Source: an uncultured Ilumatobacter sp. (GTDB lineage: Bacteria > Actinomycetota > Acidimicrobiia > Acidimicrobiales > Ilumatobacteraceae). From it: 57,187 nucleotides of DNA. Below, one piece after another: positions 10,329 to 48,136 of this stretch. Within the stretch, counting starts at the first letter, position 1. The number at the start of each line of letters is the position of its first letter. Location: NCBI GenBank assembly GCA_937919625.1, contig CALFRK010000141.1, forward strand, positions 1-57,187. Reading direction: 5' to 3'. Under the pieces are notes generated by a model. That model made no database searches. It was not told where the DNA came from and saw nothing but the letters and a program-made list of their open reading frames with translations. Position numbers and translations under genes: made by a program.

Positions 10329-10339
10329 GAAGTTGAGCC

Positions 10340-12990: not shown

Positions 12991-13003
12991 TTGTCGTTCC
13001 TCC

Positions 13004-13537: not shown

Positions 13538-13547
13538 TTCTGACCAC

Positions 13548-15189: not shown

Positions 15190-15191
15190 GA

Positions 15192-30009: not shown

Positions 30010-30012
30010 GGG

Positions 30013-31519: not shown

Positions 31520-32763
31520 CAGTACGCAACCCCCTCACGTTCTCGGTTGCGTTTGCTCACCACGAGCGCCGCATTGAACAGTAGGTAGGCGACAAACAGC
31601 ACAGCGACGCCGAGTGCCGCCGCCAACAGCACCGGGCCGAGCCCGTCGTACTTGTCGCGGGTCATCTGCAGCGCGGCCAGCACCAGGAACCAGCCGAGTG
31701 CGGCCGGGATCAAGAGCTTCCAACCGAAGTCCATCAGCTGGTCATAGCGCAGGCGAGGCAGTGTGGCCCTGAACCAGACATAGGTGTACAAGAAGGCGAG
31801 TGTCTTGAGGATCACCCACAGGGTGCCGCCAAACGGACCCGCAAAGCCGAGCATGTCGACGCCGCCCAGCGTGAGCGGCTGCGGTCCACCGAGAAACAGG
31901 GTGACGATAATGGCGCTCATCGTGATGACGTTCATGAATTCGGCCAGAAAAAACAGGCCGAACCGGATCGACGAGTATTCGGTATTGAAACCGCCGACCA
32001 GTTCTTGTTCGGCCTCGACGAGGTCGAACGGGGGCCGGCTGAGCTCGGCTGTCATGGCGATCATGAAGATCACGAACGGGATGAAGCCGGTGGCGACGAT
32101 GTTCCAGTTGCCGATCCCGTCCTGCCCGCCGACGATGCCCGAGGTCGACAGCGTGCCAGACATCAACAACACAGCACCAAGACTGAGACCGAGCGCTGCT
32201 TCGTACGAGATCATCTGGGCAGTGGCCCGCACCGATCCGAGCAATGGGTATTTTGAGCCCGACGCCCAGCCGGCGAGCATGATGCCGTAGACGCCGATCG
32301 AGCTGAGGGCGAGCACGATCAGAATTCCGACAGGCGGGTCGATCAGCTGCACACGGGTGGTTTCGCCGAACCAGGTGACCGTTCCATCCTTGCCGTCGGT
32401 GAAGTCGCCCCCGAGGGGGATCACCGACCACAACAAGAACGCCGGCACAAACGCCAGGAAGGGCGCCACGCGGAACACCCACTTGTCAGCCTTGTCGGGC
32501 AGCAGGTCCTCCTTGAAGAACAGCTTCATGCCATCGGCGAGCGTTTGCAGAATCCCGAACGGGCCCGCCTTGTTGGGGCCGATCCGGTTCTGCATGCCCG
32601 ACACGATCTTGCGTTCGAACCAGACCATCAGCATCGTGCCGATCAGACCGATCACGAAGATCGCCAACACCTTGGCGGCGACGATGGCAAGCACCTTCCA
32701 CCACCACTTGTCGGTGTCGAGCAACGGATCGACAGCGAGCAACGAGGCAACCATCAAGTTCAT
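31519..32763 (-). CDS. nuoH: NADH-quinone oxidoreductase subunit H (14-subunit operon)
   Basis: A 414-residue quinone-channel subunit. The first loop is canonical: [20 protein letters not shown] then MKLFFKED. The [18 protein letters not shown] block with its conserved acidic residues is intact. ATG 32763 overlaps the nuoG stop as ATGA. Confidence 0.96.
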
Positions 32764-35177
32764 GTGAGGCGCTCGATTCGTACGTCGGTGACAGCTGTCG
32801 AGCTGTCGACGATGTCGGTGATATCGGCGCCGGCCTGATTGAACGGCGCCCAGATCGTGCCACGCTGCACCGTGTCATCTGAGACCAGCGGCAGAACGAC
32901 CGATCCCGAGGCACTGACAAGCCTGACCTCAGCGCCATCGGGTTCGCCGACACGATCGTGGTCGGCCGGGTGCAGGTGGGCACCGGCCCCGATCGGCAGT
33001 TTGGCCAGCGACGGCGACATCGTGGTCGAGACCGCCCGGTCGTACAGCTTGCGACTGACCACGAGCCGGTAGTCGTAACCACTCGGTTGAGCCTCGGTCG
33101 CTTCGACGCTCGGGAGCCCGCCGCCGGTGTTGACGGCCAGCACGCCGTCGGCACTATCGATCGCAGTAGGGGTTGCCGATGCATAGGCCGGCACGGTGGC
33201 GGCGATCGCTGCGGTCACGTCATCGATCGACGTAAACCCGAGGTCGTGGCCCAGTACCGACGCCAACTCGGAGGCGATCATCCAATCGGGGCGAGCGGTG
33301 CCATGCACGGTGACCTTTTGATTAAGCCGCGAAACGCGACCCTCGAGATTGGTCGTGGTACCACGCTGCTCGGCAAACGCCGCGGCAGGGAATACCAGGT
33401 CGGCCTGCTGGGTCGACTCGGACGGCAGCGTGTCGATCGAGATGACGTGTCGGGCGCCGGCGATCGCTCGCCGCGCCAGGTCGGCATCGGGGCAGTCGTT
33501 GATCGGATCGGCACCAAGCAGCACCAGCAGATCGAGATGGCCGGCGGCGGCAAGTCGAAGTGTGGCGAGCGCGTCGTGGTCGACGTCGACCGGCGCCAGC
33601 CCGAGCTGCAATGCGCCGACGACATTGCCGCGTCGTAGCGCAGGGAGCACCGTCGCGTTAGGCACCGCAGAGAGCACCGCCTGAACTGCAGCAAGGGCCG
33701 TGGCTTCCGACACTGCCATATTGCTTCGCCCTGCGACGAGCACGACATCTCCAGAGGCGATCTGGGCAGCGATCGTCGGATCGGCCAAGGTTTTGGCAAT
33801 CTCGACCGGGCCAAGGCCAGGGGCATGCCGGATGCTGCGCCAGGCGTAGCGGGTGATACCGGTCGACTGCGACGAAAACTCGATGATCTTCGTGTGCCCA
33901 TGAACGGCGGCATCACGTAGCCGCAGGTACAGGACCGGCAGCTCTTCTTTGAGGTCGGGGCCGACCAAGATCACGGTGTTGGCGGCGGCGGCCTGGTTGA
34001 TCGTGGCGCGTGGAACACCCAGCAATTCAGCCGACAACCCGTCGCCGAGCTGTGCATCACGATGGGCGATACCGACAGCGTCGGCGAGCTGCGCCCAGGC
34101 AAAGGCGCCCTCGTTGGTGCCGCGGGCGCCGCCCAGCAGACCGATCGAACTGGCGCCGTCGATCAGCTGACGAGCCAACTCGAGCGCCGAGTTCCAGGAG
34201 GTGTCGACGAGACCAGCCTCGCTACGCACCAGTGGAACGCCGAGCCGATGGCCAGCCTCGATCGACTCGAAGTTGAAGCGACCGCGGTCACACATCCAGC
34301 CCCAGTTGACCGAATCCGAATCAGCACCGGTGTCGACACCCTGGAATCGCAATAACTCATCACGGCTGGAATGCACCGAAATACGACAGCCAACCGAGCA
34401 GCTTGTACAGGTCGACTCGACCTGTTCGAGATCCCAGGGGCGGGCCTTGAAGCGGTACGGCTTGGCCGTCAACGCACCGACCGGGCAGATCTGCACGGTG
34501 TTGCCCGAGAAGTAGGACGAGAAAGGCTCGTCGGGGAAGGTGCTGACCTGTGTGGCGTTGCCGCGCTCGATGAACTGGATCAGCTTGTCGCCGGCGACCT
34601 CGTCGGCAAAACGGGTGCAGCGATCGCACAGGATGCAGCGTTCGCGGTCGAGCAACACGTGCTCGCTGAGGGCGATCGGCTTTTCGTAGTGGCGCTTCTC
34701 TTCGACGAAGCGGCTCTCGCCCGGGCCGTGGCTCAGGGTTTGATCCTGGAGCGGGCACTCGCCGCCTTTGTCGCACACCGGACAGTCGAGCGGATGGTTG
34801 ATCAGCAACAGCTCGAGGATGCCCTCTTGAGCGCGCTTCGCCATCGGGGTATTCGTTTCGACCTTCATCTCGGGCAACACCGTGATCATGCACGACGGCT
34901 GCAGCATCGGGCCGCGACCGGTATCGACTTCGACCATGCACTGACGACACATACCGACGGAACTCATGCGCGGGTGATAACAGAATCGTGGGATGTACTC
35001 ACCCTCACGATCGGCTGCGGCGATGATCGTCTCACCCTTGCGGGCCACGATCTCACGCCCATTCAGCGTGATCGCAACCGCGTTCGGGTCCGGCTCGGGG
35101 ATCGTCTCGACCGCTGTGTCGGCAGCCACGAGGTCGTCCTCGTTGGTCAGGTCGTTGTCAGGTTCGTCGCTCATCAT
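32760..35177 (-). CDS. nuoG: NADH-quinone oxidoreductase subunit G
   Basis: An 805-residue peripheral-arm subunit. The N-terminal 2Fe-2S domain carries CYHPRMSSVGMCRQC. Then come HPLDCPVCDKGGECPLQ and ERCILCDRCTRF for 4Fe-4S clusters. The extra cluster motif CTSCSVGC with a later Cys in WMCDRGRF matches N7 as in E. coli. The C-terminal molybdopterin-oxidoreductase-like domain has no need of Mo in complex I. The first ~30 residues are an acidic extension. ATG 35177 overlaps nuoF as ATGA. Confidence 0.96.
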   Translation of the reverse strand: MMSDEPDNDLTNEDDLVAADTAVETIPEPDPNAVAITLNGREIVARKGETIIAAADREGEYIPRFCYHPRMSSVGMCRQCMVEVDTGRGPMLQPSCMITVLPEMKVETNTPMAKRAQEGILELLLINHPLDCPVCDKGGECPLQDQTLSHGPGESRFVEEKRHYEKPIALSEHVLLDRERCILCDRCTRFADEVAGDKLIQFIERGNATQVSTFPDEPFSSYFSGNTVQICPVGALTAKPYRFKARPWDLEQVESTCTSCSVGCRISVHSSRDELLRFQGVDTGADSDSVNWGWMCDRGRFNFESIEAGHRLGVPLVRSEAGLVDTSWNSALELARQLIDGASSIGLLGGARGTNEGAFAWAQLADAVGIAHRDAQLGDGLSAELLGVPRATINQAAAANTVILVGPDLKEELPVLYLRLRDAAVHGHTKIIEFSSQSTGITRYAWRSIRHAPGLGPVEIAKTLADPTIAAQIASGDVVLVAGRSNMAVSEATALAAVQAVLSAVPNATVLPALRRGNVVGALQLGLAPVDVDHDALATLRLAAAGHLDLLVLLGADPINDCPDADLARRAIAGARHVISIDTLPSESTQQADLVFPAAAFAEQRGTTTNLEGRVSRLNQKVTVHGTARPDWMIASELASVLGHDLGFTSIDDVTAAIAATVPAYASATPTAIDSADGVLAVNTGGGLPSVEATEAQPSGYDYRLVVSRKLYDRAVSTTMSPSLAKLPIGAGAHLHPADHDRVGEPDGAEVRLVSASGSVVLPLVSDDTVQRGTIWAPFNQAGADITDIVDSSTAVTDVRIERLT

Positions 35178-36595
35178 TCGCCTCCCACCGGGGCCGCCGT
35201 GACTGGAATCATCGAGCGCACTTCACGTTTCGTCACCAATACAGCGAACTCCTCGGGAAACAGGGTCATCGCCGAGTGCACGGGCACATACGCCGACGGG
35301 CCGACGAAGCAGATCGTGGTCATCTTGTACGGAAACGGCACGGCATCGAGACCGAGCCGCTCGCTGGCGGCGTGCGGCATCTCGCCGGGACAAATCGACT
35401 GTCCGACCTCGCGGATCGTGTCGAGATCGGCATCGGTGCCGTTGCCGGCGACGATCCGCTCGAGAATGCGGTACAGCCAGGTGCCTCCTTCGCGGCACGG
35501 AACACACTTGCCACATGATTCGTGGGCGTAGAACTTCACGAGCGTCAGCGCCGCCGCTGGAATGTCGGTGGTGTCGTCCATCACGATCACGGCGCCCGAC
35601 CCGAGCATCGAACCGGCACTGCTGGCCTGGCGTCCCTCGAACGGGATGTCGAGCTGATCGGCGACGAACCACGGGGCCGATCCGCCTCCCGGCACAAATG
35701 CCTTGAGCTCGTTGCCATCACGAATGCCCTGGCCGAAGTTCTCGCCATAGATCAGGTCGCGGAACGTGGTAGTTCCGTTGATAATTTCATACACGCCTGG
35801 GCGCTTGACGTGACCCGATACGGCGATCATGCGCGTGCCTGGTGATGTCTCGGTGCCGATCGCCGTGTATGCGGCGGAACCGTTGGCGGCAATAAACGGC
35901 AAGTTCGCCAGCGTCTCGACATTGTTGACGATCGTCGGCTGACCGTACAGGCCGATCGCGGCCGGGAAGTACGGGGGCTTCACACGAGGCATACCGCGCT
36001 CGCCTTCGAGCGACTCGATCAACGCTGTCTCTTCGCCGACGACATACGCACCGGCACCCCAGTGCAGCACGATGTCGACGCTGAAACTGTTGCCGAGAAT
36101 GTTCTTGCCGATGTACCCGGCGCGATACGCATCGTCGAGTGCCTTGGCGACGCGCTCATGGGCCAGTGCCATCTCGCCACGGATGTAGAGGAAGCACTGC
36201 GACAGGCCGGCCGCGTAGCAGGCGATCAGGCAACCTTCGATCAGCTGATGCGGATCGAGCTCCATCAGTAGCCGATCCTTGTAGGTGCCTGGCTCGCTCT
36301 CGTCACCGTTGACCACGAGATACCGCGGCCACACGCCGGCAGGCGTGAAACCCCACTTGACACCGGCAGGGAACCCAGCGCCACCGCGGCCCAACAGGGT
36401 CGACTTCTTGACCTCGTCGGCCATTTCGGCCGGTTGCATCTCGAGCGCCTTGCGGAGCCCTTGGTAACCACCGCTCTCGTGATAACGATCAAGGGTGTAC
36501 GAGTCGTCGTACTTGAACCGCGATGTGACGATCTGGGGACGATCACCGTCGTCGAAGTACCCGGCTGCCCAGGCGTACGTGCCGTGTGCACCCAT
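35174..36595 (-). CDS. nuoF: NADH-quinone oxidoreductase subunit F (NADH and FMN site)
   Basis: A 473-residue subunit that oxidises NADH. The nucleotide-binding GRGGAGFPAGVKWGF, the FMN-site region and the N3 cluster motif ESCGKCVPCREGG with the distal Cys in SICPGE are intact. ATG 36595 overlaps nuoE as TGATG. No second copy exists for the 11-subunit operon. Confidence 0.97.
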   Translation of the reverse strand: MGAHGTYAWAAGYFDDGDRPQIVTSRFKYDDSYTLDRYHESGGYQGLRKALEMQPAEMADEVKKSTLLGRGGAGFPAGVKWGFTPAGVWPRYLVVNGDESEPGTYKDRLLMELDPHQLIEGCLIACYAAGLSQCFLYIRGEMALAHERVAKALDDAYRAGYIGKNILGNSFSVDIVLHWGAGAYVVGEETALIESLEGERGMPRVKPPYFPAAIGLYGQPTIVNNVETLANLPFIAANGSAAYTAIGTETSPGTRMIAVSGHVKRPGVYEIINGTTTFRDLIYGENFGQGIRDGNELKAFVPGGGSAPWFVADQLDIPFEGRQASSAGSMLGSGAVIVMDDTTDIPAAALTLVKFYAHESCGKCVPCREGGTWLYRILERIVAGNGTDADLDTIREVGQSICPGEMPHAASERLGLDAVPFPYKMTTICFVGPSAYVPVHSAMTLFPEEFAVLVTKREVRSMIPVTAAPVGGE

Positions 36596-37215
36596 CACTC
36601 ACCACCTGCCGGAACGATCTCGATCCATGCAGGGCCCGACGTCACGTCGTCTGGATGCTGCGCACCCACTGCCCGGTCGGCGGGAATTTGCTGACGGTTA
36701 CGGCCCAACGTGCCGTGCGGCGGAATCTCGTTGTCGAGCTTGCCGGCACGCAGATCGTCGACGAGTTGATCGAAGTCGGCGGGAGTGACACGAAATCGAT
36801 GCCGATAGTTGACCTGCAACGTGGGCGCCTCGGTACACGCTGCTTGGCATTCGGCGTGCTGCAGCGTGATCAGCCCGTCGGGCGTGGTGCTGCCGGCCTT
36901 GATACCGAGTGTGTGCTCGGCGTGGTGCAGCAGTTGCTTGGCACCCAGCAGGGCGCACGACAGCGTGCCGCACATATTGATGAGGTACTTGCCAGTGGGT
37001 TCGAACCGAAACATCTCGTAGAACGAGGCGGTGCCGTACACCTCGGCAGGCGTGACATTGATCAGTTCGGCAATGTGACGCATCGCTTCTTCTGTGACGT
37101 ACCCGTTCTGTTGTTGCGACAGATGCACGAGCGGAATCAACGCCGACTTCTGCTTGGGATAGCGAGCGATGATCTCACGCGCCAGCGCCACATTCGAATC
37201 ATTCAAGCGACTCAT
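36595..37215 (-). CDS. nuoE: NADH-quinone oxidoreductase subunit E, 2Fe-2S
   Basis: A 206-residue thioredoxin-like subunit. The N1a cluster ligands are Cys82 and Cys87 (CGTLSC) and Cys123 and Cys127 (CQAAC). The C-terminal ~45 residues extend beyond the core domain. GAGGTG precedes ATG 37215. Confidence 0.96.
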   Translation of the reverse strand: MSRLNDSNVALAREIIARYPKQKSALIPLVHLSQQQNGYVTEEAMRHIAELINVTPAEVYGTASFYEMFRFEPTGKYLINMCGTLSCALLGAKQLLHHAEHTLGIKAGSTTPDGLITLQHAECQAACTEAPTLQVNYRHRFRVTPADFDQLVDDLRAGKLDNEIPPHGTLGRNRQQIPADRAVGAQHPDDVTSGPAWIEIVPAGGE

Positions 37216-37237
37216 AGTTCACCTCGGTCACGGAGTG

Positions 37238-38560
37238 TCATCGGTCGACCTCGCCGAGGACTGGGTCGACGCTGGAGATCACGGCGACAGCATCGGCGAC
37301 AAGGCCGCCACGCATCATGTGCGGCAGGCACTGAACGTTCACGAATGATGGGGCCCGCACATGCATTCGGTACGGAGTTGGCGAACCATCGCTGGCGATG
37401 TAGCAGCCGACCTCACCGCGCGGGCTCTCGATCCCCACATACACCTCGCCCTCAGGCACCTTGAAGCCCTCGGTAAAGATCTTGAAGTGATGAATCAGCG
37501 CCTCCATCGACTCGTCGATCCGGGCGCGCGGCGGCGGTGTGACCTTCTTGTTCTGGATGCGATAGTCACCGATCGGCATCATGTCGAGGATCTGGCGAAC
37601 GATCTTCATCGACTCACGGATCTCGTTCAGGCGAATCGCATAGCGGTCGAACGCGTCGCCATACGACCCGACGATCACATCGAACTCGACCTGGTCGTAG
37701 TGCAGATAAGGCATATCGCGACGCAGGTCCCAAGCGACACCGGTCGAGCGCAGGATCGGCCCTGTGGCACCCAGCGCCAACGCTTCGTCGGGGGTGATGA
37801 CACCGACCCCTTGTAACCGTTCGCGCCAGATCGGCTGACCGGTCATGAGAATGTCGTATTCGTCAAGGCGCTCGGGAATCAGGTCGAGCAGTCGCAGCAC
37901 ATCGTCGCGCCATCCCGCAGGCAGGTCGGCGGCCACACCGCCAGGACGGATGAAGTTGTGGTTCATCCGCAGCCCGGTGACCTTCTGGAAGAAGCGCAGC
38001 ACTTCTTCGCGTTCACGCCAGCCGTAGATCATCATCGACACGGCACCGAGGTCCATGCCGTTGCTGGCCATGAACAACAGGTGGCTACTCATGCGATTGA
38101 GCTCGCTGAGCAGCATCCGCATCCAAACTGCGCGCTCAGGAATCTCGCCGTCGATGCCGAGCAGCTGCTCGGTGGCCATCGAGAACACCAGCTCGTTGTT
38201 GAACGGGCTGAGATAGTCCATTCGGGTGACGTTGGTGCCACCTTGCATGAACGTGAGCTGCTCGCCGGTCTTCTCCATACCGGTGTGCAGGTAGCCGATT
38301 ATCGGCTTGCAGCGCAGCACGGTCTCACCCTTCAGCTCGAGCATCAGTCGCAACACGCCGTGCGTCGACGGGTGCTGCGGACCCATGTTGAGGATCATCG
38401 TCTGATCCTCATCAGGATCATCCGGCATGTCGCCGAGCTTGGCGACCTCGGCCTCGCTCATACGCAACACCGAACCAACTTCGCGCATAAGTTCGCGGGC
38501 GGTCAGCTCTGACCGCCCCCGCATCTCCTGTGCGCCCTCGTCGCGGATCGTGGCCGTCAT
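37238..38560 (-). CDS. nuoD: NADH-quinone oxidoreductase subunit D, canonical (14-subunit operon)
   Basis: A 440-residue 49-kDa-type subunit. GPQHPSTHGVL keeps quinone-site His67, and Tyr116 in TRMDYLSPFNNE is the canonical quinone ligand. The residue matching the NDUFAF7-methylated Arg is Thr93 (YLHTGMEK). The N-terminal ~50 residues are an extension not seen in the other NuoD. ATGA overlap with nuoC. Confidence 0.97.
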   Translation of the reverse strand: MTATIRDEGAQEMRGRSELTARELMREVGSVLRMSEAEVAKLGDMPDDPDEDQTMILNMGPQHPSTHGVLRLMLELKGETVLRCKPIIGYLHTGMEKTGEQLTFMQGGTNVTRMDYLSPFNNELVFSMATEQLLGIDGEIPERAVWMRMLLSELNRMSSHLLFMASNGMDLGAVSMMIYGWREREEVLRFFQKVTGLRMNHNFIRPGGVAADLPAGWRDDVLRLLDLIPERLDEYDILMTGQPIWRERLQGVGVITPDEALALGATGPILRSTGVAWDLRRDMPYLHYDQVEFDVIVGSYGDAFDRYAIRLNEIRESMKIVRQILDMMPIGDYRIQNKKVTPPPRARIDESMEALIHHFKIFTEGFKVPEGEVYVGIESPRGEVGCYIASDGSPTPYRMHVRAPSFVNVQCLPHMMRGGLVADAVAVISSVDPVLGEVDR

Positions 38561-39081
38561 GAGTTGGCCCCCTTGAATTGCACGGGGATCTTGCCGATTT
38601 CGTAGTCCTTGCGGAGCGGGTGGCCGATCCAGTCCTCTGGCATCAGGATCCGGGACGGGTCGGGGTGATCGGTGAACTCGATGCCGAACATGTCGTACAC
38701 CTCACGCTCCATCGCCTCGCTGCCGGGATGGACGTCGAACAGAGTCGCGATGACGGCATCGTCGGCTGGCACCTGCAGACGCAGCCGGATCCGGCGACGA
38801 TTTGTGATGTCGAGCAAGTTGACGACGACCTCGAATCGCTCGGGCGTGACGCCAGCGGGAAGCGGTCGGCGCATGTAGTCGAGATAATCGACCGCGGTAA
38901 GATCGGCGCACATCGCATAGCCCTCGTCGGCGAGCGCCTTGACGACACCGACATACTGCTGGCGGGTGGGGTGGATGACCACCTGGCCACGGCTGTCGCT
39001 AACGGGGCAGCCGTGCATCTCGGCAGCCGCCGCGACCATATCGCCAGCCGCGTCGGTGGTGGGATCGGCGGTGTCGCTCAT
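38557..39081 (-). CDS. nuoC: NADH-quinone oxidoreductase subunit C (14-subunit operon)
   Basis: A 174-residue 30-kDa-type subunit. The signature is EREVYDMFGIEFTDHPDPSR followed by WIGHPLRKDY. I start at ATG 39081, one base after the nuoB stop, rather than at upstream codons that lie inside nuoB. Confidence 0.95.
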   Translation of the reverse strand: MSDTADPTTDAAGDMVAAAAEMHGCPVSDSRGQVVIHPTRQQYVGVVKALADEGYAMCADLTAVDYLDYMRRPLPAGVTPERFEVVVNLLDITNRRRIRLRLQVPADDAVIATLFDVHPGSEAMEREVYDMFGIEFTDHPDPSRILMPEDWIGHPLRKDYEIGKIPVQFKGANS

Positions 39082-39082
39082 G

Positions 39083-39664
39083 TCACTTGAATCCGAGCAA
39101 AACCGGAGTAGAGGTGCGGGCGATCTGTTCGACATGCAGGTTGGCGCCAGCACCGGTCTCGCTACGGCGGCGAAGGATCTCGCCGTCCTCGATCTTCTGA
39201 TGCAGGGTCTCGATCGCATGGATCAGCGTCTCGGGTGTTGGAGGACAACCCGGGGCGTACACGTCGACGGGCACGATCTGATCGACGCCCTGAACGATCG
39301 CATAGTTGTTGAACATGCCACCGGAACTGGCGCACACACCCATCGAGATGACCCACTTCGGTTCCATCATCTGGTCGTACACCTGGCGCAGCACCGGGGC
39401 CATCTTCTGGCTGACCCGGCCGGCGACGATCATGATGTCGGCCTGCCGCGGCGATGCGCGGAAAACCTCCATGCCGAAGCGCGATATGTCGTAATGCGCA
39501 CCACCGGTTGCCATCATCTCGATCGCACAGCAAGCCAGGCCAAACGAGGCCGGCCATGACGAGCGTGAACGGGCCCAGTTGACGAGGTCTTCCAGGCGAC
39601 CGGTGATGACGTTATGACTCAACCCGCCAATTCCTTCAGCGAGTACATCGTCGACGACTCTCAC
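39083..39664 (-). CDS. nuoB: NADH-quinone oxidoreductase subunit B, cluster N2 (14-subunit operon)
   Basis: A 193-residue N2-cluster subunit. Ligands are Cys45-Cys46 (GLACCAIEM), Cys111 (MGVCASSGG) and Cys140 (APGCPPTP). GTG 39664 has AGGAGG upstream at good spacing. Confidence 0.96.
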
Positions 39665-39672
39665 GGGGCCTC

Positions 39673-40170
39673 CTAGGCGGCTTCCTCGGTGTTCGCTCCC
39701 CCAGCGGTCACCCGATCGACTCGGCCTTCGAGGCCGACCCGTCGAATAGTGGATGATGAATCACGAGCGGCCGACACCATCGCCGCGTCTTGCTCGAGGC
39801 TGCGATAGCCGTGGAGTGGTCCCCATTCCAATCCACCCCGGGCTACCTCATACACAAAGGTCAAAAAGAAAATCACCGAGAAGACGACGACCGCCCAGAA
39901 TCCAAACTCGCCGACCGTGGCGCGCTCGACGGCATATGGGTAGATGAAGATGATCTCGATGTCGAACATGATGAACAACATGGCGACGATGTAAAAGCTG
40001 ACCGGAAAGCGGTCAGGTGGTTGGCGGCTTGGAACAATTCCGCACTCGTATGGCGCCTGCTTGGCGGCTGACGGGCGACGGGGCGCCAACAACCGCGAAG
40101 CGGCGAAGCTCAGGCCACCGAACGCGGTGGCCAGAATCATCAAGACGACGAGCGGCAAGTATTGGCCCAT
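39673..40170 (-). CDS. nuoA: NADH-quinone oxidoreductase subunit A (14-subunit operon)
   Basis: A 165-residue subunit. The canonical loop [14 protein letters not shown] includes the Cys missing in the other Nuo[23 protein letters not shown] is typical. A C-terminal hydrophilic tail of about 45 residues follows the third helix. It begins 2 bp after the preceding membrane-protein gene, tying nuo to the bc-complex genes. Confidence 0.96.
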
Positions 40171-40172
40171 AG

Positions 40173-41006
40173 CTATGCGACCACCATCGCCTTGCGCTCT
40201 AGATTTTCGACCACGAACCGGTCACGACGATGCAGCAGGAAGCACATCGCCAGGAACATGATCGTCGATCCGATCGCGATGTAGGCGGCGGGCTGCCGCA
40301 GCGAACCGAGGTCGCGGACCATATAGACATACTGGCGCTGGCGAGTGGTGTCGACCTCGGAGGCTGTCGGAGCGCGACCCGGCTCGCCGAGCAACGGCGA
40401 AAACGGTGCCACTTCGACCAGGGTGTAGTACGGCTTGTGGAAGAAGGCGATCTGATCGAACTCGCCGTTCGGTCCGAGCTTGGGATACGCCGACTCTTCA
40501 GGAGGGTCGACCTCGTATACGGCGGTCACGTCGAACTCGCCGGGACCAAACGCTCCCTCTTCTTCGAGGAACACGCCGGCTGAGGCCTCGGCCTGACCAA
40601 ACTCGGGGGCGGAATCCTCCACCCTGGTCCAACCTTGGCTGAGAAGCCGAGTTTCGACGGCCGCCGCTGCTTCGGCCGGGTCGGTCTGCGAGGTCACCGA
40701 GATTGGCTCGTCGAGCACACCTGCCTGATAAAGCAGGTCGACTTCTTGAATAACGGTGCGGCCCTGGACCTGTGTCCACGCCGGCGCATCACCCTTGAGG
40801 CCGATGCCGTAGATCCACCAGACGATGCCCATCAGGGCGATCCAGCCGACGAGCCCGGTGAGGGTGATCAAGAAGCCAAGCCGGGCACCGAGGTTGGTGC
40901 CGAGGATCAGGTAGATCGATCCCATCCACACGATGGTCCCGATGATGACGGTGAGAATGCCGCGGAGTTCGGGCTCCCAGTTGATAGCGAGGATTGTTGA
41001 CAGCAT
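40173..41006 (-). CDS. Uncharacterised membrane protein of the bc/nuo operon
   Basis: A 277-residue protein I cannot place in a named family. Two N-terminal helices (about residues 16-36 and 43-66) are followed by about 170 polar, acidic residues and a C-terminal helix (about 240-262) with a short basic tail. No Cys-based cofactor motif is present. ATG 41006 overlaps the cytochrome c stop by one base and nuoA follows after 2 bp, so it is embedded between complex III and complex I genes. It could be an accessory or linking subunit; that is inference from position. Confidence 0.85.
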   Translation of the reverse strand: MLSTILAINWEPELRGILTVIIGTIVWMGSIYLILGTNLGARLGFLITLTGLVGWIALMGIVWWIYGIGLKGDAPAWTQVQGRTVIQEVDLLYQAGVLDEPISVTSQTDPAEAAAAVETRLLSQGWTRVEDSAPEFGQAEASAGVFLEEEGAFGPGEFDVTAVYEVDPPEESAYPKLGPNGEFDQIAFFHKPYYTLVEVAPFSPLLGEPGRAPTASEVDTTRQRQYVYMVRDLGSLRQPAAYIAIGSTIMFLAMCFLLHRRDRFVVENLERKAMVVA

Positions 41007-42067
41007 CAGAGACTCCGCACGTATTCGACGATGGCCTGGATCTGCTCGCTGGTCAGCATCGCCCCGAACCCTGGCATACGTCCACTGCCCTGCGAAGCAA
41101 CGCCGTACTTGGCGCCGAGGGTCGATCCGTTGGACACGAAGTCGATCATGTCGGCCTCGTTCGGAAAGCGGGCGTTCGTGGAACCTCCGGTGAGGTTCCA
41201 GCCGAACGAACCCTGACCCGGCTCGCCGGGATCGCCCCAGCTCCAGCCCAGGGTGTGACAACGGGCGCAACTGTAGGCACCGCTGGCTAGATCGAGATTG
41301 AACAACGCTTCGCCGTATGACGAGTACGTGCCGTCGGCGACGGCCTTGTTGGCGAGCGTGTCGATGTCGTTCTGGGTTGCGGCGGGAAGGTTGCCGGACG
41401 GGCAGGTCTTGATGTCGTCCTCGCCCAGCCCGCAGCCCTCACGATCGATTTGGATGCTGTGCATATAGGCCAGCAGCGTGTCGATCTGCTGATCGTTCAT
41501 GGGGCCGCCACCGGCGACACCCCATGGCGACATCGGCGAGAACGGGCGGCCGTAAACCAAGATGAACCGTACCTCTTCCTCGGAGAAACGGTAGAAGATC
41601 GTGTTGAGCGCCGGTGCGTTCCAGGCGACCGAAGTGACCTGTTGGGTGGCCGGGTCGGTGAGGTTGTACGGGGCAGATCCTCCGTTGCCGCTCATGCCTC
41701 CGTGGCAACCCGAGCAGTTGAAGCCGCCATCAGCGGTCGGGGCGAACAAGCGCGAGCCCCACTCGACGAAGATCTCCTCTTTGGCGTCTTGGGCGCCGGC
41801 CAAACGGGCCGGCTCGAGAATCCAGTACAGCGGCAATCCGATCACGATCACCACCAGCAGGATCACACCGGTGCCAAGCACGCGGGTCAGCCGCGGACCC
41901 TCGAGGATTTCGTCTTCGTAGAACTTCTGGCGGTTGGCTGCGACCTCTTGCTCGGAGCCGAGTTCGTCGCGCGACTGGCGCAGGTTCAAGAAGGCATAGA
42001 CCACCCACCCGCCGAGAATGACAGCGAACAGCAACCAGGCGATCGAGGTCGTGGTAAGTGCGATCAT
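41006..42067 (-). CDS. Membrane-bound dihaem cytochrome c of the bc complex
   Basis: A 353-residue protein with two N-terminal helices (about 8-26 and 66-84) and two c-type haem sites: CSGCH (118-122) and CARCH (267-271). GRMPGFGAML near 336 likely supplies the axial Met of the second haem. It plays the role of QcrC in actinobacterial bc complexes, which also bear two haems, passing electrons from the Rieske protein towards an oxidase. It overlaps the Rieske gene stop as TGATG. Confidence 0.93.
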   Translation of the reverse strand: MIALTTTSIAWLLFAVILGGWVVYAFLNLRQSRDELGSEQEVAANRQKFYEDEILEGPRLTRVLGTGVILLVVIVIGLPLYWILEPARLAGAQDAKEEIFVEWGSRLFAPTADGGFNCSGCHGGMSGNGGSAPYNLTDPATQQVTSVAWNAPALNTIFYRFSEEEVRFILVYGRPFSPMSPWGVAGGGPMNDQQIDTLLAYMHSIQIDREGCGLGEDDIKTCPSGNLPAATQNDIDTLANKAVADGTYSSYGEALFNLDLASGAYSCARCHTLGWSWGDPGEPGQGSFGWNLTGGSTNARFPNEADMIDFVSNGSTLGAKYGVASQGSGRMPGFGAMLTSEQIQAIVEYVRSL

Positions 42068-42942
42068 CAGTGCTCCGATATTCCGACGCAGTGCGGACCC
42101 TCGGCCTCTTGGCCAGTGGTGTTGGTGCCGATCGGCTGGCCCCTCACAATGATGCCGGTGTTGACCGTGACATCACCGGCGACCGAAAATTCGAGTGGGA
42201 AGTGGTCCATGCCACGCGGCGCAGGGCCGCCCTTCTTCTCGCCGACACGGTTGTACTGCGATCCGTGACAACCGCACTCGAACCACTGGCTCGACAAACA
42301 TTGCGGAACGCGGCAGCCGAGGTGTGGGCACTTCTGGTAGGAAGCAATCAAGCCCTGTTCGAGGCCAGGTATCAAACTCGAGGCATACAGGCCCTCGGCC
42401 TTGGGGATCGCGTCGACCGGATACTCGGTGATCCAGGCCCGAGCCTCTGGCGCATAGAAGAAGCCATTGCCGGCGCGGATCCCAGCGACGATGTCGTCAA
42501 ACCGGCCGACCGAGACCTTGCTGCCGAACCCGCCGACCTTGGTGGGCCAGAGGAAGGCGACGAAGCTGGCCGCCCCAAACGTACCGAGCCCTGCCGCCAT
42601 CAACGAGATCGTGGCGCGGTTGAAAAACTGGCGGCGACTGACGCCGAGCGCATCAGGGTCGGGCGGCACCCAAGCGGTGAGGCCGGAGTCGTGCTGGACC
42701 GGGGCAAGCCCGCCTTCGACGCGTGCGGCTACTCCGGCAGCCTCTACGTCGGCCGCCCGCGAAGTGTTCGACTCGGCGGCAGAGGTGGCAGCCGCCCGAG
42801 CGACGCGGTCGCGCTTGGTCGTTTCGGCAGACAGTGCGCCTGCCCCTCGTACGTCGGTGCGGCGTGCGAGCGTGATGAAGGCCAGCGCGCCCAGCACTAC
42901 GGCGGCGGCGATCGCAATGATGATGACGGCGGTTGCGTTCAT
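42067..42942 (-). CDS. Rieske 2Fe-2S protein of the bc complex
   Basis: A 291-residue protein. Box 1 CPHLGC gives ligands Cys205 and His207; box 2 CGCHGS gives Cys223 and His226; Cys210 and Cys225 form the usual disulfide. An N-terminal helix (2-26), a charged Ala-rich linker, and a second helix (about 111-132) after SRRQFFNRA, a Tat-like signal-anchor motif, precede the soluble domain. It oxidises quinol at the Qo site and reduces cytochrome c. Confidence 0.94.
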   Translation of the reverse strand: MNATAVIIIAIAAAVVLGALAFITLARRTDVRGAGALSAETTKRDRVARAAATSAAESNTSRAADVEAAGVAARVEGGLAPVQHDSGLTAWVPPDPDALGVSRRQFFNRATISLMAAGLGTFGAASFVAFLWPTKVGGFGSKVSVGRFDDIVAGIRAGNGFFYAPEARAWITEYPVDAIPKAEGLYASSLIPGLEQGLIASYQKCPHLGCRVPQCLSSQWFECGCHGSQYNRVGEKKGGPAPRGMDHFPLEFSVAGDVTVNTGIIVRGQPIGTNTTGQEAEGPHCVGISEH

Positions 42943-42961
42943 GATGTGTGCCTCCTCTGCG

Positions 42962-43741
42962 TCACAGCTCGAAGAACAAGCCGTCGCGCCATGGCAGGGT
43001 GAAGTTGAAGCCAGGGCCTCGGAAGAACGACCCGATCATGACGAGCACGGCCCAGAACATGATGTGCACGGTCATCAACGAGATCGCAAACTTGCGATCC
43101 TCTGGCTTGTTCGATGGGTTCTTGTCGATGTACGGAGCGAAGATCAGCACGATCAGGCCGACCCCTGGGATGGTGACACCGGCGATCATCGGGTGGAACA
43201 TCGTGAGCAACTCTTGCAGGCCCAGGAAGTACCACGGCGCCTTCGACGGGTTGGGAGTCTGGTTGGGATTCGAGTGCTGAAGCAGCGGGGCGTTGACCCA
43301 AACCGCGAACAGGAAAAGGAAGGCGGTGCAGGCCAGGGCGGCGACGAACTCGATTGCCAGAAGGTGCGGCCAGGTGTGGACCTTGTCGACCGGCTGAGAC
43401 TTGACATCTTGGATCGAGCCCGACTTGACGACCGTCAACAGACGCTGCGTGTGACCACCGGGTCCGGCTCCGACAGGGACACCGCCACCGCCAGGGGCAG
43501 CGGCGACGGCAGCTGCCACCTTGTCCTGCACTGCGACGCCACCACCCGGGGCTGCGTCTTCGCCCGATGTCTTGGACTTGGCGGCGCGGCTGCGTTCGAG
43601 CAGGTGAGCCGGAATTCGCGAATCGCTCGCGGCCGCGGCGGGCTGCTCGCCGCCAGCAGGGGTTGCCGGGGCGGCCTCCGAGGCAGATTTGTCGCGGGCC
43701 GCCTGGGCCCGCTTCAAGAGATGTTCGGGGATCTCAGTCAT
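42962..43741 (-). CDS. Cytochrome b C-terminal subunit (subunit IV/PetD-like)
   Basis: A 259-residue protein with about three membrane helices in its C-terminal half, matching the C-terminal part of cytochrome b. The Qo motif reads KAPWYFLGLQE (Ala168-Pro-Trp-Tyr) in place of PEWY, so the usual catalytic Glu is not in its normal place. The N-terminal ~100 residues are Ala/Gly/Pro-rich and carry EIPEHLLKRA (3-12) and RIPAHLLERSR (42-52). The first motif recurs at the start of the cytochrome c at 46031. It is encoded 62 bp after the b6-like half. Confidence 0.92.
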   Translation of the reverse strand: MTEIPEHLLKRAQAARDKSASEAAPATPAGGEQPAAAASDSRIPAHLLERSRAAKSKTSGEDAAPGGGVAVQDKVAAAVAAAPGGGGVPVGAGPGGHTQRLLTVVKSGSIQDVKSQPVDKVHTWPHLLAIEFVAALACTAFLFLFAVWVNAPLLQHSNPNQTPNPSKAPWYFLGLQELLTMFHPMIAGVTIPGVGLIVLIFAPYIDKNPSNKPEDRKFAISLMTVHIMFWAVLVMIGSFFRGPGFNFTLPWRDGLFFEL

Positions 43742-43753
43742 CTGCCACTCCTC

Positions 43754-43810
43754 CGATCACAACTGCCCACTACGGCGATCACAACAGGCCATCACAACGG
43801 CGATCACAAC
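43754..43810. repeat. Four copies of a 10-bp repeat between the two cytochrome b genes
   Basis: On the minus strand the sequence GTTGTGATCG (one copy GTTGTGATGG) occurs at 43810, 43798, 43785 and 43763 (5' ends), with spacings of 12, 13 and 22 bp. The first copy overlaps the stop codon of the b6-like gene and the last runs into the GGAGGAG ribosome-binding site of the next gene. Confidence 0.75.
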
Positions 43811-44589
43811 GGCCCACTGATTCCGCCGTCCTTGCGGACTCGCCAGAAATGGATCGCCATAAAGATGACAATCACGAACGGAAGGAACAACACGTGCAGC
43901 ACATACCATCGCAGCAGTGTCTCCGAGCTGATCTCGGCACCGCCCAACAAGACGAATCTGACGTCCTGACCGAAGACCGGCGTGTAGCCCATCATGTTGG
44001 TGCCCACGTTGACCGCCCAATAGGCGAGCTGGTCCCACGGCAGCAGGTAGCCGGTGAACGACAGCAACAAAGTGAGCTTGAGCAGCATCACGCCGATCAC
44101 CCAGTTGAACTCGCGCGGCGGCTTGTAGGCGCCGTGATAGAAGACGCGGGCCATGTGTAAAAACACAGAGATCACCATCAGGTGCGCGCCCCATCGATGC
44201 ATGTTGCGTACCAGCAGGCCAAACGTGACCGAGGTCTGAAGGTTGGAGATGTCGTTCCACGCCGACGTGGCCTCCGGACGGTAGAAGAACATCAAGAAAA
44301 TGCCCGTGACCGTGAGATGGATGAACAAGAAGAAGCTGAGCCCACCGAGGCACAGCGTGTAGCTGACCTTGACGGCGTGACGCTTTACCTTGACTGGGTG
44401 CAAGTGGTACAGCACCGAGTTCATGATGACGTAACTGCGGTTGCGAGGGCTGTCGCTGTAGCCCTTGCGAAAGATCGAGCCGGGCCGGAAGATGCTCGAC
44501 CAGACCTGACCGCCCTGCACGCCGTCGACGGCCCGCTGGGCGCGTTCCTTGGCGGTGGGCTTCGGCGTGTCGTCAATGATCTTTGCCAT
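43804..44589 (-). CDS. Cytochrome b6-like subunit (cytochrome b N-terminal half)
   Basis: A 261-residue subunit closely resembling cytochrome b6. Haem ligands are His131/His232 and His145/His247, with 14- and 15-residue spacings as in b6. TGYLLPWDQLAYWAV and the end GGISGPL also match b6. Cys80 in CLGG lies 51 residues before His131, as Cys35 does before His86 in b6; in b6f and Bacillus-type complexes this Cys holds an extra haem (c_n). A cytoplasmic N-terminus of about 75 residues precedes the first helix. Confidence 0.94.
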   Translation of the reverse strand: MAKIIDDTPKPTAKERAQRAVDGVQGGQVWSSIFRPGSIFRKGYSDSPRNRSYVIMNSVLYHLHPVKVKRHAVKVSYTLCLGGLSFFLFIHLTVTGIFLMFFYRPEATSAWNDISNLQTSVTFGLLVRNMHRWGAHLMVISVFLHMARVFYHGAYKPPREFNWVIGVMLLKLTLLLSFTGYLLPWDQLAYWAVNVGTNMMGYTPVFGQDVRFVLLGGAEISSETLLRWYVLHVLFLPFVIVIFMAIHFWRVRKDGGISGPL

Positions 44590-44612
44590 ATTGATGTCTC
44601 GCTATGTCTCGC

Positions 44613-45026
44613 TCAGAGCCTCATGCCATAGCCGTAGCCATGGCTGTTGTTGCGGGCATGGAAATCGCCGGCGGCGGTCGGCTGGCCGATCTTGCCGAGA
44701 ATGATTACGCCGGTTGGGCAGCGGTCGACGCACAGGGCGCACCGCGTGCATACGTCGTCGTCGATAATGAACACGAATGCGTCCGACGGATCGAGACCAG
44801 GCTGCTCGGTGCCTTCCGCCTCGACCACGGCGTCGGTGTTGATCATGTGGATGCACTTCCACGGGCAGATGTCGACACATCCTTCGCAGGAGATGCACTC
44901 GCTCTGATCGATGTGGATGAACTGCTTGGGCTTGACGGCGCGGGCGAGATAGTCAGCGTCGACCTCGACGAGTGTGTACTCGTCGGTGTACGGCATCATC
45001 GGTGGATTTGCGTCGGTCTTGGCCAT
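44613..45026 (-). CDS. 2[4Fe-4S] ferredoxin-like protein of the bc operon
   Basis: A 137-residue soluble protein. Motifs CISCEGCVDICP (Cys44, 47, 50, 54) and CTRCALCVDRCP (Cys93, 96, 99, 103) each predict a [4Fe-4S] cluster; Cys58 is extra. About 40 residues separate the motifs, longer than in small ferredoxins. There is no signal peptide or helix, so it should be cytoplasmic. It lies 23 bp before the b6-like gene and is likely cotranslated with the bc complex, which normally has no such subunit. Confidence 0.92.
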   Translation of the reverse strand: MAKTDANPPMMPYTDEYTLVEVDADYLARAVKPKQFIHIDQSECISCEGCVDICPWKCIHMINTDAVVEAEGTEQPGLDPSDAFVFIIDDDVCTRCALCVDRCPTGVIILGKIGQPTAAGDFHARNNSHGYGYGMRL

Positions 45027-45045
45027 TTCAGTGTTCCCGGCCGGG

Positions 45046-45540
45046 TCAGCCCTTCTTCACGAGCGGGCGGCCATAGGTGCTGGTCTCGAGTTGCTTCGTG
45101 ACAGTGTCGCCACGCTTTTGCCACCAACTCCAGATGAACAACATCAGCCCGAAGAAGTAGAGGTGGATCAAGACGACAATGATGTCTCGAACTGCTTCGT
45201 ACTGGAGGGTGATCGGGTTCCACCCCCCCAGCGGCTCGGGCTTCAAAATGTCGAATGGCCCGTAGATGATGTTGGTTCGGTTCCAGCCGAGGTTCTTGTC
45301 GGCATGGTCGATCCATTGGTGCGGCACAACACCGAACGACAAGAACATCACACCGAAGGCGTAGACCGAGCCGAGCATCGCCTCGCCCCACGAGAACGGG
45401 GTGCCCTTGGGACGCCGCTTACCGTACGGGATCGCCAAAAGGGTGAGCACGGTGGCGGCCAACAACGACAACAAAAAAGCGGTGTTCACACCCGGGATCG
45501 CCTTGCCCTCCAAGGGATTCCACCAGTTGAAGGCGATCAT
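45046..45540 (-). CDS. Uncharacterised three-helix membrane protein, first gene of the bc/nuo run
   Basis: A 164-residue protein with helices at about 19-39, 57-77 and 115-142. Trp-rich ends (IAFNWWNP, IWSWWQKRG) and a polar loop with GWNRTNIIYGPFDI are notable. No cofactor motif is visible and I recognise no family. As first gene of the operon, 19 bp before the ferredoxin-like gene, it may be a small subunit or assembly factor of the bc complex. Confidence 0.82.
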   Translation of the reverse strand: MIAFNWWNPLEGKAIPGVNTAFLLSLLAATVLTLLAIPYGKRRPKGTPFSWGEAMLGSVYAFGVMFLSFGVVPHQWIDHADKNLGWNRTNIIYGPFDILKPEPLGGWNPITLQYEAVRDIIVVLIHLYFFGLMLFIWSWWQKRGDTVTKQLETSTYGRPLVKKG

Positions 45541-45751
45541 CGGGATCGTGGTTCCCTTTCGCTTGTGGGTCGTGTTGTCATCGTGGTCGTGTTGTCCTGT
45601 TTACCTGGTCGCGTGACGGCTCGGAACACTACCGGGGCAACCCGGTAGATGGTTCGTTAGCGATGGCACAAAGTCGCTTGCCGCACTGTAGTCGCCCGAC
45701 GTGTCGCAGTTACATCTCGTGCGCCGAACAGTCTGGCGCGGCGGGGAGGTT

Positions 45752-45820
45752 GTGCAAAAGTGCACGCGACCGACGACCGGTCGTTGCCGATTGTTCCGCG
45801 ATCGATCCAACATCGATCGC
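45752..45820. promoter_or_regulatory. Cluster of three inverted repeats (candidate operators)
   Basis: Three perfect inverted repeats occur within 69 bp: GTGCA-AAAG-TGCAC (45752-45765), the 12-bp palindrome ACGACCGGTCGT (45773-45784), and GCGATCGAT-CCAAC-ATCGATCGC (45798-45820) with 9-bp arms. None is followed by a T-run, and they sit in the middle of a divergent region, so binding sites for dimeric regulators are more likely than terminators. Confidence 0.55.
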
Positions 45821-45962
45821 CACGTCGATCCCGACATTCATGATGGAGAAATTCAGGAAAGGGTGGTTGCCGCGTCTATCGTTTCGGAAGTTCGACACGA
45901 TGTTGCGCCCGGCCGGGTCGTGGCGTCGCGAGCGTGACCAAGAATCTGTTATCAGAGATCGC

Positions 45963-46018
45963 GACCAAGACATCGTGACCAAGACATCGTGACCAAGACA
46001 TCGTGACCAAGACATCGT
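45963..46018. repeat. 14-bp tandem repeat, four copies
   Basis: Four exact copies of GACCAAGACATCGT start at 45963, 45977, 45991 and 46005, ending 12 bp before the cytochrome c start codon. A partial copy (GTGACCAAGA) lies at about 45935. The period of 14 is not a multiple of three, so it is not a coding repeat. Confidence 0.9.
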
Positions 46019-46030
46019 GAGAGGACGAGC

Positions 46031-46861
46031 GTGACCGAAATCCCCGAGCACCTGCTGAAGCGAAGCCGCGAGCGCCGCGCCGCGGGCGGTGCCGGCGACG
46101 AGGTCGCAGCTGCGACGCCTGCCACTACAACACCGGCCACCACTGCCAGCTCTGCTCCGGCATCTGCGCCCGGATCCGTCGCCCGCGCCGCCGCCCCTAC
46201 CCCAGCGGGGCCTCCGCCACCCAAGCCCGACAGTGCCGTGGTCGCCGCCTACAAGGCACGCCGTCGCATCCCGTTCTGGGCGATGGTCGCCCTCAGCGCC
46301 CTGCCAGTGTGGGCATTCCTCTATGTCCGAGCCCTGACACAATCACCTGTCGAGGCGGCCGGTCCACTCGGCCTCGGCGCCGAGGTGTATGGCGGTTGCG
46401 CAGCGTGCCACGGCGCCGACGGCGGAGGGCTTGTCGGCTACGCCTTCACCGGCGGTGAAGTACTCGACACATTCCCCCACATCGAGGACCAGCTGCGCTT
46501 CGTCTACTTCGGAACAGCCAACTACAACATCGCCGGAGTCGATGTGTACGGCAACCCCGAGCGCCAGGGAGGCGTCCACGTCACCGGCGAGAAGGGCCCG
46601 ATGCCACCTCAGGGCGAGGCGGGCGGCGGCGGTCTGCTCGACTTCGAGATCCTTAGTGTTGTGTGCCACGAGCGCTACGCCCTGGGCGGTGCCGACCCGA
46701 CCGGCGAATACGCTGCCGAGTTCGCTCAGTGGTGTGCGGGAGATTCAGAGATCTTCGTCGACCTCGAAGCTGGCGGAAATCTCGCCACGCTGCACGAACG
46801 GTTCGACGCCATCTTGCCGATCGGCGACGCACCAGCGGCGGGTTCTGCTGCGACCGGGTGA
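46031..46861 (+). CDS. Membrane-anchored monohaem cytochrome c
   Basis: A 276-residue protein. It starts with EIPEHLLKRSRERR (3-16), nearly the same as the start of the cytochrome b C-terminal subunit on the other strand. An Ala/Pro/Thr-rich linker leads to a membrane helix (about 82-100) and a haem site CAACH (123-127). The order cytoplasmic tail, helix, haem domain puts the haem outside. Later Cys residues (VVCHERY, QWCAGD) may form a disulfide; the first reads CH but lacks the CxxCH pattern. GTG 46031 is preceded by AGAGG. It may carry electrons from the bc complex to an oxidase. Confidence 0.88.
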   Translation: MTEIPEHLLKRSRERRAAGGAGDEVAAATPATTTPATTASSAPASAPGSVARAAAPTPAGPPPPKPDSAVVAAYKARRRIPFWAMVALSALPVWAFLYVRALTQSPVEAAGPLGLGAEVYGGCAACHGADGGGLVGYAFTGGEVLDTFPHIEDQLRFVYFGTANYNIAGVDVYGNPERQGGVHVTGEKGPMPPQGEAGGGGLLDFEILSVVCHERYALGGADPTGEYAAEFAQWCAGDSEIFVDLEAGGNLATLHERFDAILPIGDAPAAGSAATG

Positions 46862-46885
46862 AATTGCCATGAGCGGTTGCCCTCT

Positions 46886-48136
46886 ATGACCGCTCACCCC
46901 TCGGCCACCGCTGACGTCCTGGTAATCGGCGGAGGACCCGGCGGGTCGGCTGCCGCCGCACTGCTGGCCCAGCGCGGTCACCGCGTGATCGTGATCGAGC
47001 GCAAAGTGTTTCCACACGCCGATCGTTCCGGCGCCTTGCTCACACCCCGCTCGTTGACAGCGCTGCGCCAGTTCGAGCTGCCTCAACTCGAGCAATTCCA
47101 CCGCGTCCGGCACGTCCGAATCACCAGTGAGGGCCGATCCACGTCGACCACCTGGCCGAACCATCCCCAGTACCCGCAATATGCGGCGGTGGCATCGCGT
47201 TCGGCGTTCAACCAGCAGCTGATTCGAGCCGCCGTCGCAGAGGGCGCCACCGTGCTCGCCGGACACGATGCGACCGACCCGATCGTCGAACGCGGGTTCG
47301 CCCGTGGCGCCAATGTCACCGCACCCGACGGCACGACATTCGAAGCGAGGTCTGAATACACGATCGTTGCCGACGGCGCGAACAGCCGCTTCGGTCGAGC
47401 GCTGGGTACCTTCCGCAGGCCGACTTGGCCGTACGCACTCGGCCACCGAGCGACCTATCTGTCACCGCTGCACGACGCCAGCGAAATCGAACTGGTGGTC
47501 GACCTGCGCGACCGGTCTGGCACGCCGATCACCGGCTATGGCTGGATGCTGCCGGCTGGAGACGGCCACGTCACGGTCGGGGTCATGATGATGTCGACGT
47601 CGCCCTCATTTCAGGTCGTCAACCCTGCCCATCTGCTCGCGCGGGTGATCACCGACCACGGTGCCCGCTGGCACCTTGCCACCGAACCGGTCGCCCCCGG
47701 CAGCGGTGGCCGAGTTCCGCTGGGGATGTCGGTTCAGCCATCGGCCGGTCCGACCTACCTCTTGATCGGCGATGCCGCGGGAGCCGCAAATCCGCTGTCA
47801 GGGGCGGGTATCGAAGCGGCACTCGAAACCGGGGCGTTGGCGGCAGGCGTCGTCGACGAAGCGTTGCAGACCGGAACATCGGCGGCCCTGCAGCAGTACT
47901 CGCAGCTGCTCTCGCAGCATTACGAATCGTTCTACAAGGTCGGTCGGCTGACAACCAGGGTGCTCGGTCAGCCCACGATGTCGCGCCGCATCAATCGACT
48001 TGCTGCAACACGACGACCCGCCGCCGATGCATTTCTGCGGCTTGCCACCGGCGAGCTGCGTCCGGGCCGAGCAGGCATCGCCGAGCTCGCCTACCGAGTC
48101 GGGCGCACGATCAGTATCGTCGCCCCGGACGCATGA
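46886..48136 (+). CDS. Geranylgeranyl-reductase-family FAD-dependent oxidoreductase
   Basis: A 416-residue flavoprotein. The N-terminal dinucleotide fold has VIGGGPGGSAAAALLAQRG; the second FAD motif is LIGDAAGAANPLSGAGIEAALETG. This family reduces isoprenoid chains, for example the menaquinone tail in actinobacteria (MenJ) or archaeal-type lipids. I start at ATG 46886; a TTG three codons upstream is less likely. It is 24 bp after the cytochrome c gene, so probably cotranscribed, which favours a quinone-tail role over chlorophyll or lipid roles. Confidence 0.88.
   Translation: MTAHPSATADVLVIGGGPGGSAAAALLAQRGHRVIVIERKVFPHADRSGALLTPRSLTALRQFELPQLEQFHRVRHVRITSEGRSTSTTWPNHPQYPQYAAVASRSAFNQQLIRAAVAEGATVLAGHDATDPIVERGFARGANVTAPDGTTFEARSEYTIVADGANSRFGRALGTFRRPTWPYALGHRATYLSPLHDASEIELVVDLRDRSGTPITGYGWMLPAGDGHVTVGVMMMSTSPSFQVVNPAHLLARVITDHGARWHLATEPVAPGSGGRVPLGMSVQPSAGPTYLLIGDAAGAANPLSGAGIEAALETGALAAGVVDEALQTGTSAALQQYSQLLSQHYESFYKVGRLTTRVLGQPTMSRRINRLAATRRPAADAFLRLATGELRPGRAGIAELAYRVGRTISIVAPDA

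Follow-up and report, generated by a model that had tools for sequence, protein, structure and literature searches.

Our results suggest that the small iron-sulphur protein encoded within a Rieske/cytochrome b operon of this organism, hereafter FD, probably serves a b6-type menaquinol:cytochrome c oxidoreductase as a dedicated two-cluster subunit or partner that transfers electrons on the cytoplasmic (N) side. We propose that electrons would pass through FD, which would link a low-potential carrier in the cytoplasm to the complex, at its inner quinone site or close by. FD is viewed as such an N-side port because its gene stands next to that of the b6-type subunit in nearly all sampled members of the phylum that have this subunit, and because its domain is kin to those of oxidoreductases encoded beside Rieske/cytochrome b genes. 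Taken alone, the adjacency could be that of a soluble protein under common regulation.

The FD gene and its operon

FD is encoded on the minus strand at 44613-45026 of the window, the whole 57,187-nucleotide stretch of DNA that was analysed. The open reading frame specifies 137 amino acids made up of cluster domains only, with Fer4-type matches in Pfam, and contains two 4Fe-4S motifs, CISCEGCVDICPWKC and CTRCALCVDRCP. The first motif and a ninth cysteine occupy residues 44-58 (44853-44897, minus strand) and the second motif residues 93-103 (44718-44750, minus strand), both read from the sequence and alignment A2. The eight cluster cysteines (residues 44, 47, 50, 54, 93, 96, 99 and 103) and the ninth, Cys58 in CPWKC, are invariant in the 19 rows of that alignment. 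The peak 19-residue hydropathy of FD, 1.32, falls below the crude cut of 1.6 for a membrane span, so that none is predicted; four out-of-class homologues (L140, L142, L143 and L156) exceed this cut. The FD stop lies at 44613 and the b6-like frame starts at 44589, leaving 23 bp between them. Open reading frame, motifs, Pfam matches and hydropathy thus agree with the initial annotation, which had described a cytoplasmic 2[4Fe-4S] protein 23 bp before a b6-like gene. Internal stops in some FD rows are read as the normal stop of shorter FDs that have no C-terminal tail, as checked in the six rows opened (L144-L148 and L158). One apparent FD-b6 fusion, L058 in genome G127, was rejected; it runs out of frame past CP (CPHRRDHPRQ) and was taken for a frameshift.

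On the minus strand the operon reads MEM164, FD, b6, subunit IV, Rieske protein, dihaem cytochrome c and MEM276, followed by nuoA. The cytochrome b6-type subunit (43804-44589, 261 amino acids) was identified by Pfam, by the NCBIfam model ExtP and by alignment to a solved cytochrome b6. It is followed by a subunit IV-like protein (42962-43741, Pfam Cytochrom_B_C), a Rieske [2Fe-2S] protein (42067-42942, Pfam Rieske), a cytochrome c with two CxxCH motifs (41006-42067, Pfam and sequence) and MEM276 (about 40173-41003), a membrane protein with a provisional start codon and no Pfam match. The split of b6 and subunit IV into separate reading frames and the Rieske gene in the same operon are those of a b6-type Rieske/cytochrome b complex. 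At the head of the operon, 19 bp before FD, stands MEM164 (45046-45540), a 164-residue membrane protein that matches no Pfam or NCBIfam family. Its structure model (pLDDT 85.9) predicts about three long helices; Foldseek returned no match to this fold at E <= 0.001, and the best VIA match, a designed channel at Z 9.6, is within the range common for helical bundles.

The b6 protein scores 308.8 bits against ExtP (NF040969) of the Geobacter selenite/tellurite cluster, above the cut-off of 290, whereas subunit IV scores 50 bits against ExtQ (NF040970), far under its cut-off of 150. None of the nine open reading frames scanned at 40173-48136 encodes an ext-type multihaem cytochrome, porin or rhodanese, judged by the part of the ext cluster description used for comparison (PMC5877670), and the nuo genes come next. 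The name ExtP would thus mislead for 43804-44589, a gene above the cut-off with no ext-type neighbours among those scanned. The same nine frames hold no NAD(P)-oxidoreductase-type flavoprotein, their sole flavoprotein being a MenJ-like reductase beside the operon. The geranylgeranyl/menaquinone reductase-like protein at 46877-48136 adjoins this operon, as it does in many relatives of the class. Facing the operon is a divergently oriented gene at 46031-46861; its 276-residue product has one CxxCH and a weak resemblance to actinobacterial QcrC (E 0.003), and many relatives retain the gene beside their operon. The window also carries two complex I clusters on the minus strand: an 11-subunit one without nuoEFG at 7207-17944 (11/11 subunits matched in NCBIfam) and, directly downstream of the bc operon, a full nuoA-N cluster at 24957-40170 (14/14 matched), which the initial annotation had left out.

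Conservation of the FD-b6 gene pair

In the class sample of 148 genomes, FD was found in 120 and type-1 b6 in 124 (125 copies). FD lies directly upstream of the orthologous b6, on the same strand, at 119 out of 125 genes of these Acidimicrobiia, with gaps of 4-296 bp measured between the matches. In the rest of the phylum it stands beside 84 of 92 b6 orthologues, one of which is on a G187 contig resembling a contaminant of the class. Since the pair recurs at 203 of the 217 sampled b6 orthologues, the adjacency is not due to chance. Loss of the gene from most b6-like operons of relatives, which would have spoken against placing FD with the bc complex, is therefore not what we see; gene order in relatives, together with domain kin encoded beside other Rieske/cytochrome b genes, upholds that part of the initial annotation.

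The 14 exceptions comprise eight real absences, three cases with FD at a contig end and three in which the contig starts close to or inside b6. The final 41 residues of FD lie between the contig start and b6 in G096 and G111, while in G171 FD lies on a contig that breaks off early in b6, at which point another contig begins; the contig of G084 begins too near b6 to judge, and those of G368 and G160 start inside b6. FD is truly absent from G114, G036 and G018 within the class and from G201, G256, G266, G286 and G305 outside it. Conversely, FD matches away from type-1 b6 were found in 5/124 cases in the class and 14/98 outside. Of these 14, flavoprotein-linked (type-2) complexes account for nine; four (G171, G303, G361 and G476) have FD at a contig end with a b6 fragment after it, and the one in G320 is at a contig edge. 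Within the class, L051 (G107:C1:598000-611000) carries a second FD gene at 6491-6904, apart from the bc genes, whose product equals the operon copy except for the chosen start; the remaining four in-class matches are partial. A search of named records gave at least 80 loci, mostly labelled Acidimicrobiia or Actinomycetota. Five loci labelled Phycisphaeraceae or Bifidobacterium breve (L064, L106, L118, L120 and L121) carry an Acidimicrobiia-type gene, and their label or bin looks wrong.

Kinship of FD, haem c_n and the direction of electron flow

A search with FD in its own genome also picks up NuoI (window 31115-31315, E 3.7e-8), a flavoprotein of contig C46 through its C-terminal domain (E 4.3e-5) and, on contig C37, a further protein (E 7.5e-5). 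The C46 flavoprotein resembles GltD and combines NAD(P)-binding units with Fer4 ones; its gene is directly upstream of a second set of b6, subunit IV, Rieske and cytochrome c genes. This locus, L040 (G000:C46:66000-82000), encodes the second Rieske/cytochrome b complex of the genome, with a dicluster-bearing flavoprotein and a b6 that has no c_n cysteine. In a tree of the dicluster domain, FD (22 rows) and oxidoreductase domains encoded beside Rieske/cytochrome b (23 rows) are separated from NuoI-like rows by a split with support 100/99; the FD group itself has support of 97/82 and the flavoprotein side 94/88. The tree comprises 63 rows over 89 columns with long branches, and the program warned of both; apart from FD and the oxidoreductases encoded beside Rieske genes, it samples only NuoI. 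Nine of the 10 NuoI-like rows checked, out of 17 fetched, match NuoI models. The tenth, L212, matches none; filed as NuoI-like beforehand, it falls among the flavoproteins in the tree. Relative to NuoI, FD thus appears from its sequence to be nearer to the iron-sulphur domains found in NAD(P)-oxidoreductase-like proteins whose genes adjoin Rieske/cytochrome b genes. The ninth cysteine, in CPxxC, was also tried as a signature of this group and rejected: it occurs in 139/139 FD and 18/22 flavoproteins, but also in many NuoI rows.

Profile comparison points the same way. Against an anammox-like flavoprotein, the FD profile gave an hhalign probability of 99.4 (E 5.1e-22); the underlying alignment, A3, also used for a scan of another phylum, has one row out of frame among 23 (L153). 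That scan covered 199 genomes of one phylum, apparently Planctomycetota, and gave 51 matches, 30 of which were opened. These 30 included one standalone FD, on the L064 contig itself, which is likely a binning contaminant. The seven best matches after L064 are flavoproteins with open frames of 567-585 codons, at loci encoding Rieske protein, b6, flavoprotein, subunit IV and a cytochrome with eight CxxCH motifs (one locus has an extra frame before subunit IV). By resemblance to the complexes described in the portion of PMC12954380 that we drew on, these seven may be called anammox-like. In the same phylum as L064, the loci L193-L197 have a flavoprotein gene beside Rieske/cytochrome b genes, the b having no c_n cysteine.

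The material used from PMC12954380 allows a comparison with the anammox Rieske/cytochrome b complexes (Kustd1480-1485 and Kuste4569-4574), which, like the FD complex, have a b6-type cytochrome b, subunit IV and a Rieske protein, together with a dicluster domain that is homologous to FD. A c_n-type cysteine is likewise shared by the seven anammox-like loci read. In contrast, the dicluster of the Actinomycetota is a small separate protein with no flavin or NAD(P) domain, and the P-side partner is a dihaem rather than a six- to eight-haem cytochrome. By tree and profile comparison the operon has a dicluster domain of the anammox lineage, and the frames scanned include no FAD/NAD(P)-binding oxidoreductase subunit. 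The type-2 complexes of the same phylum, such as L040, also have a dicluster-bearing gene directly upstream of b6, but there the dicluster is fused to a GltD-like NAD(P)-binding flavoprotein and, in the ten read, b6 has no c_n cysteine.

We infer that FD would bind the complex physically and contact haem c_n, haem b_H or a quinone, and that this quinone would be menaquinone; on the direction of flow our judgement is split nearly evenly between output and input. AlphaFold2 gave no usable model (pLDDT 55.9, pTM 0.34) for FD and b6 as a single read-through chain. For the anammox complexes, N-side [4Fe-4S] clusters have been modelled, and comigration of all subunits of Kuste4569-4574 is cited, in the part of PMC12954380 that we used.

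As an output, menaquinol would be bifurcated, with one electron taking the branch of the Rieske protein and cytochrome c while the other crosses the b haems, reaches FD and goes on to a biosynthetic reductase. Such menaquinol-driven reduction of FD would be uphill and would need the high-potential branch. We give this reading well short of even chances. It accords with the place of FD in the tree, in one group with iron-sulphur domains from NAD(P)-oxidoreductase-like proteins whose genes adjoin Rieske/cytochrome b genes, with the flavoprotein of that kind attached to the second complex of the genome, and with the NAD(P)H proposal for anammox bacteria and the Rieske potentials that support it, as given in the part of PMC12954380 consulted. 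However, the nine frames scanned hold only the MenJ-like reductase beside the operon and no flavoprotein of the NAD(P)-oxidoreductase type, and a classical inner quinone site would short-circuit the scheme.

As an input, FD would pass electrons from reduced ferredoxin to menaquinone specifically via haem c_n, which would make the bc complex a ferredoxin:quinone reductase; this is the route the initial annotation had suggested. Our comparisons do not support this narrower claim, and we consider it about as unlikely as output. The b6-like protein aligns with solved cytochrome b6 such that Cys80 (codon at 44350-44352, minus strand) corresponds to Cys35, which we take to be the haem c_n ligand. 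Photosynthetic cytochrome b6f further shares with the FD complex the division into b6 and subunit IV and the b haem histidines; to our knowledge it has no built-in dicluster ferredoxin gene. In that complex, access of ferredoxin to c_n is a hypothesis: c_n has been proposed as a conduit for ferredoxin electrons, according to the part of PMC9342900 available to us.

Cys80 is present in 144/144 readable type-1 rows (three are gapped) and in 135/135 readable FD loci (four unreadable), in keeping with input at c_n. However, it is equally kept in 8/8 FD-less loci. The corresponding cysteine is present in 7/7 anammox-like flavoprotein loci and in 0/15 other flavoprotein-linked loci, which have R, Y, W or G instead; a b6 with neither FD nor flavoprotein partner (L056) has G. 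These counts are of loci rather than independent genomes, and named loci partly repeat unnamed ones. Because all eight FD-less complexes keep the cysteine and 15 of the 22 flavoprotein-linked ones are without it, an N-side dicluster partner does not appear to need c_n, nor c_n the partner. This uncoupling, seen in aligned sequences, is the main result against specific input at c_n, although c_n might be used where both are present.

The direction from FD to quinone would be downhill, and the genome has one 2-oxoacid:ferredoxin oxidoreductase above the model cut-off (a second match is below it), which could supply reduced ferredoxin. However, this enzyme does not track FD. TIGR03710 at E 1e-130 has matches in 192 out of the 396 genomes of the phylum sample; at this threshold it hits all seven FD-less b6 genomes of the sample, whereas no hit comes from at least seven in-class genomes with FD, so that such a donor does not explain FD. 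Moreover, the 11-subunit complex I, by analogy with cyanobacterial NDH-1 a candidate ferredoxin:menaquinone oxidoreductase, could run the same reaction with proton pumping. The initial annotation had enlisted this cluster in support of a ferredoxin-to-quinone route; its presence in the window stands, but its bearing on FD cuts both ways, since it may already be a proton-pumping route of that kind. Input through FD would thus be thermodynamically easy, yet would bypass a pumping enzyme encoded nearby. A like argument has been made against NAD(P)H-to-quinone flow in anammox complexes, in the section of PMC12954380 that we used.

Loss of FD and its wider meaning

At the eight loci that truly have no FD, b6 comes directly after MEM164, and the remaining operon is kept where the contig allows. 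MEM164 is thus more constant than FD, and because these loci retain it, FD is an accessory part that the complex can do without. The FD-less loci span five families by code (f9, f11, f24, f37 and f74), so FD was likely lost several times independently; G096 retains it though sharing a genus code with the FD-less G036. The FD-less b6 rows show no excess of change, with 14 conserved columns altered against a control mean of 12.3 (range 4-21), and the rows of subunit IV, Rieske protein and cytochrome c from these loci are at or below controls. Residues 40-47 of b6, before the first helix, and some membrane columns are looser in FD-less rows. Column 44 is Y in 138/139 FD rows and H in 3/8 FD-less rows, a comparison that ignores kinship and that other columns equal or better. 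This looser stretch might be a trace of FD loss, as a hint only.

The dispensability of FD would also suit a redox sensor or gate at the inner face that tunes the inner quinone site, PetP-like in role only; according to the part of PMC9342900 consulted, PetP binds b6f on that face, no more than 16 A from c_n. However, the invariance of the eight cluster cysteines in 19 rows fits electron transfer at least equally, and we think such a role quite improbable. An assembly or maturation factor, as the position of FD before b6 might suggest, is more improbable still, given that the eight FD-less loci have a b6 with Cys80 and, as far as shown, the b haem histidines. That FD is a soluble ferredoxin for the reductase-like protein at 46877-48136, merely transcribed near the bc genes, is hardly credible even though that gene adjoins the operon in so many in-class relatives: it is still present at the FD-less L048, L057 and L167, it occurs in 0/20 out-of-class loci within the stretch read, and the FD gene adjoins b6 at 203 of the 217 sampled orthologues.

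The preferred reading of FD as an electron-transfer subunit or partner thus applies to a known kind of complex in a variant that is real and recurrent. In the parts of the sources that we used, the anammox complexes (PMC12954380) come nearest to it, along with the c_n hypothesis for b6f (PMC9342900). We recognised no description of a dicluster protein in such operons in the openly licensed literature searched. More speculatively, many actinobacterial bc complexes might own a low-potential inner-face two-cluster subunit that exchanges menaquinone electrons with cytoplasmic ferredoxin or NAD(P)H chemistry, in its boldest form by menaquinol bifurcation making reduced FD as the cell respires; we regard this generalization as doubtful at present.

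Photosynthesis research has long left open whether a b6-type complex lets ferredoxin and quinone exchange electrons directly through its inner face. Here a dicluster protein is genetically tied to such a complex in a large group whose examined genes give no hint of photosynthesis. The natural FD-less lineages and the flavoprotein-fused relatives offer pairs with and without the component, which makes the question testable. If true, the proposed role would mean one more redox link in the way that little-studied environmental actinobacteria respire.
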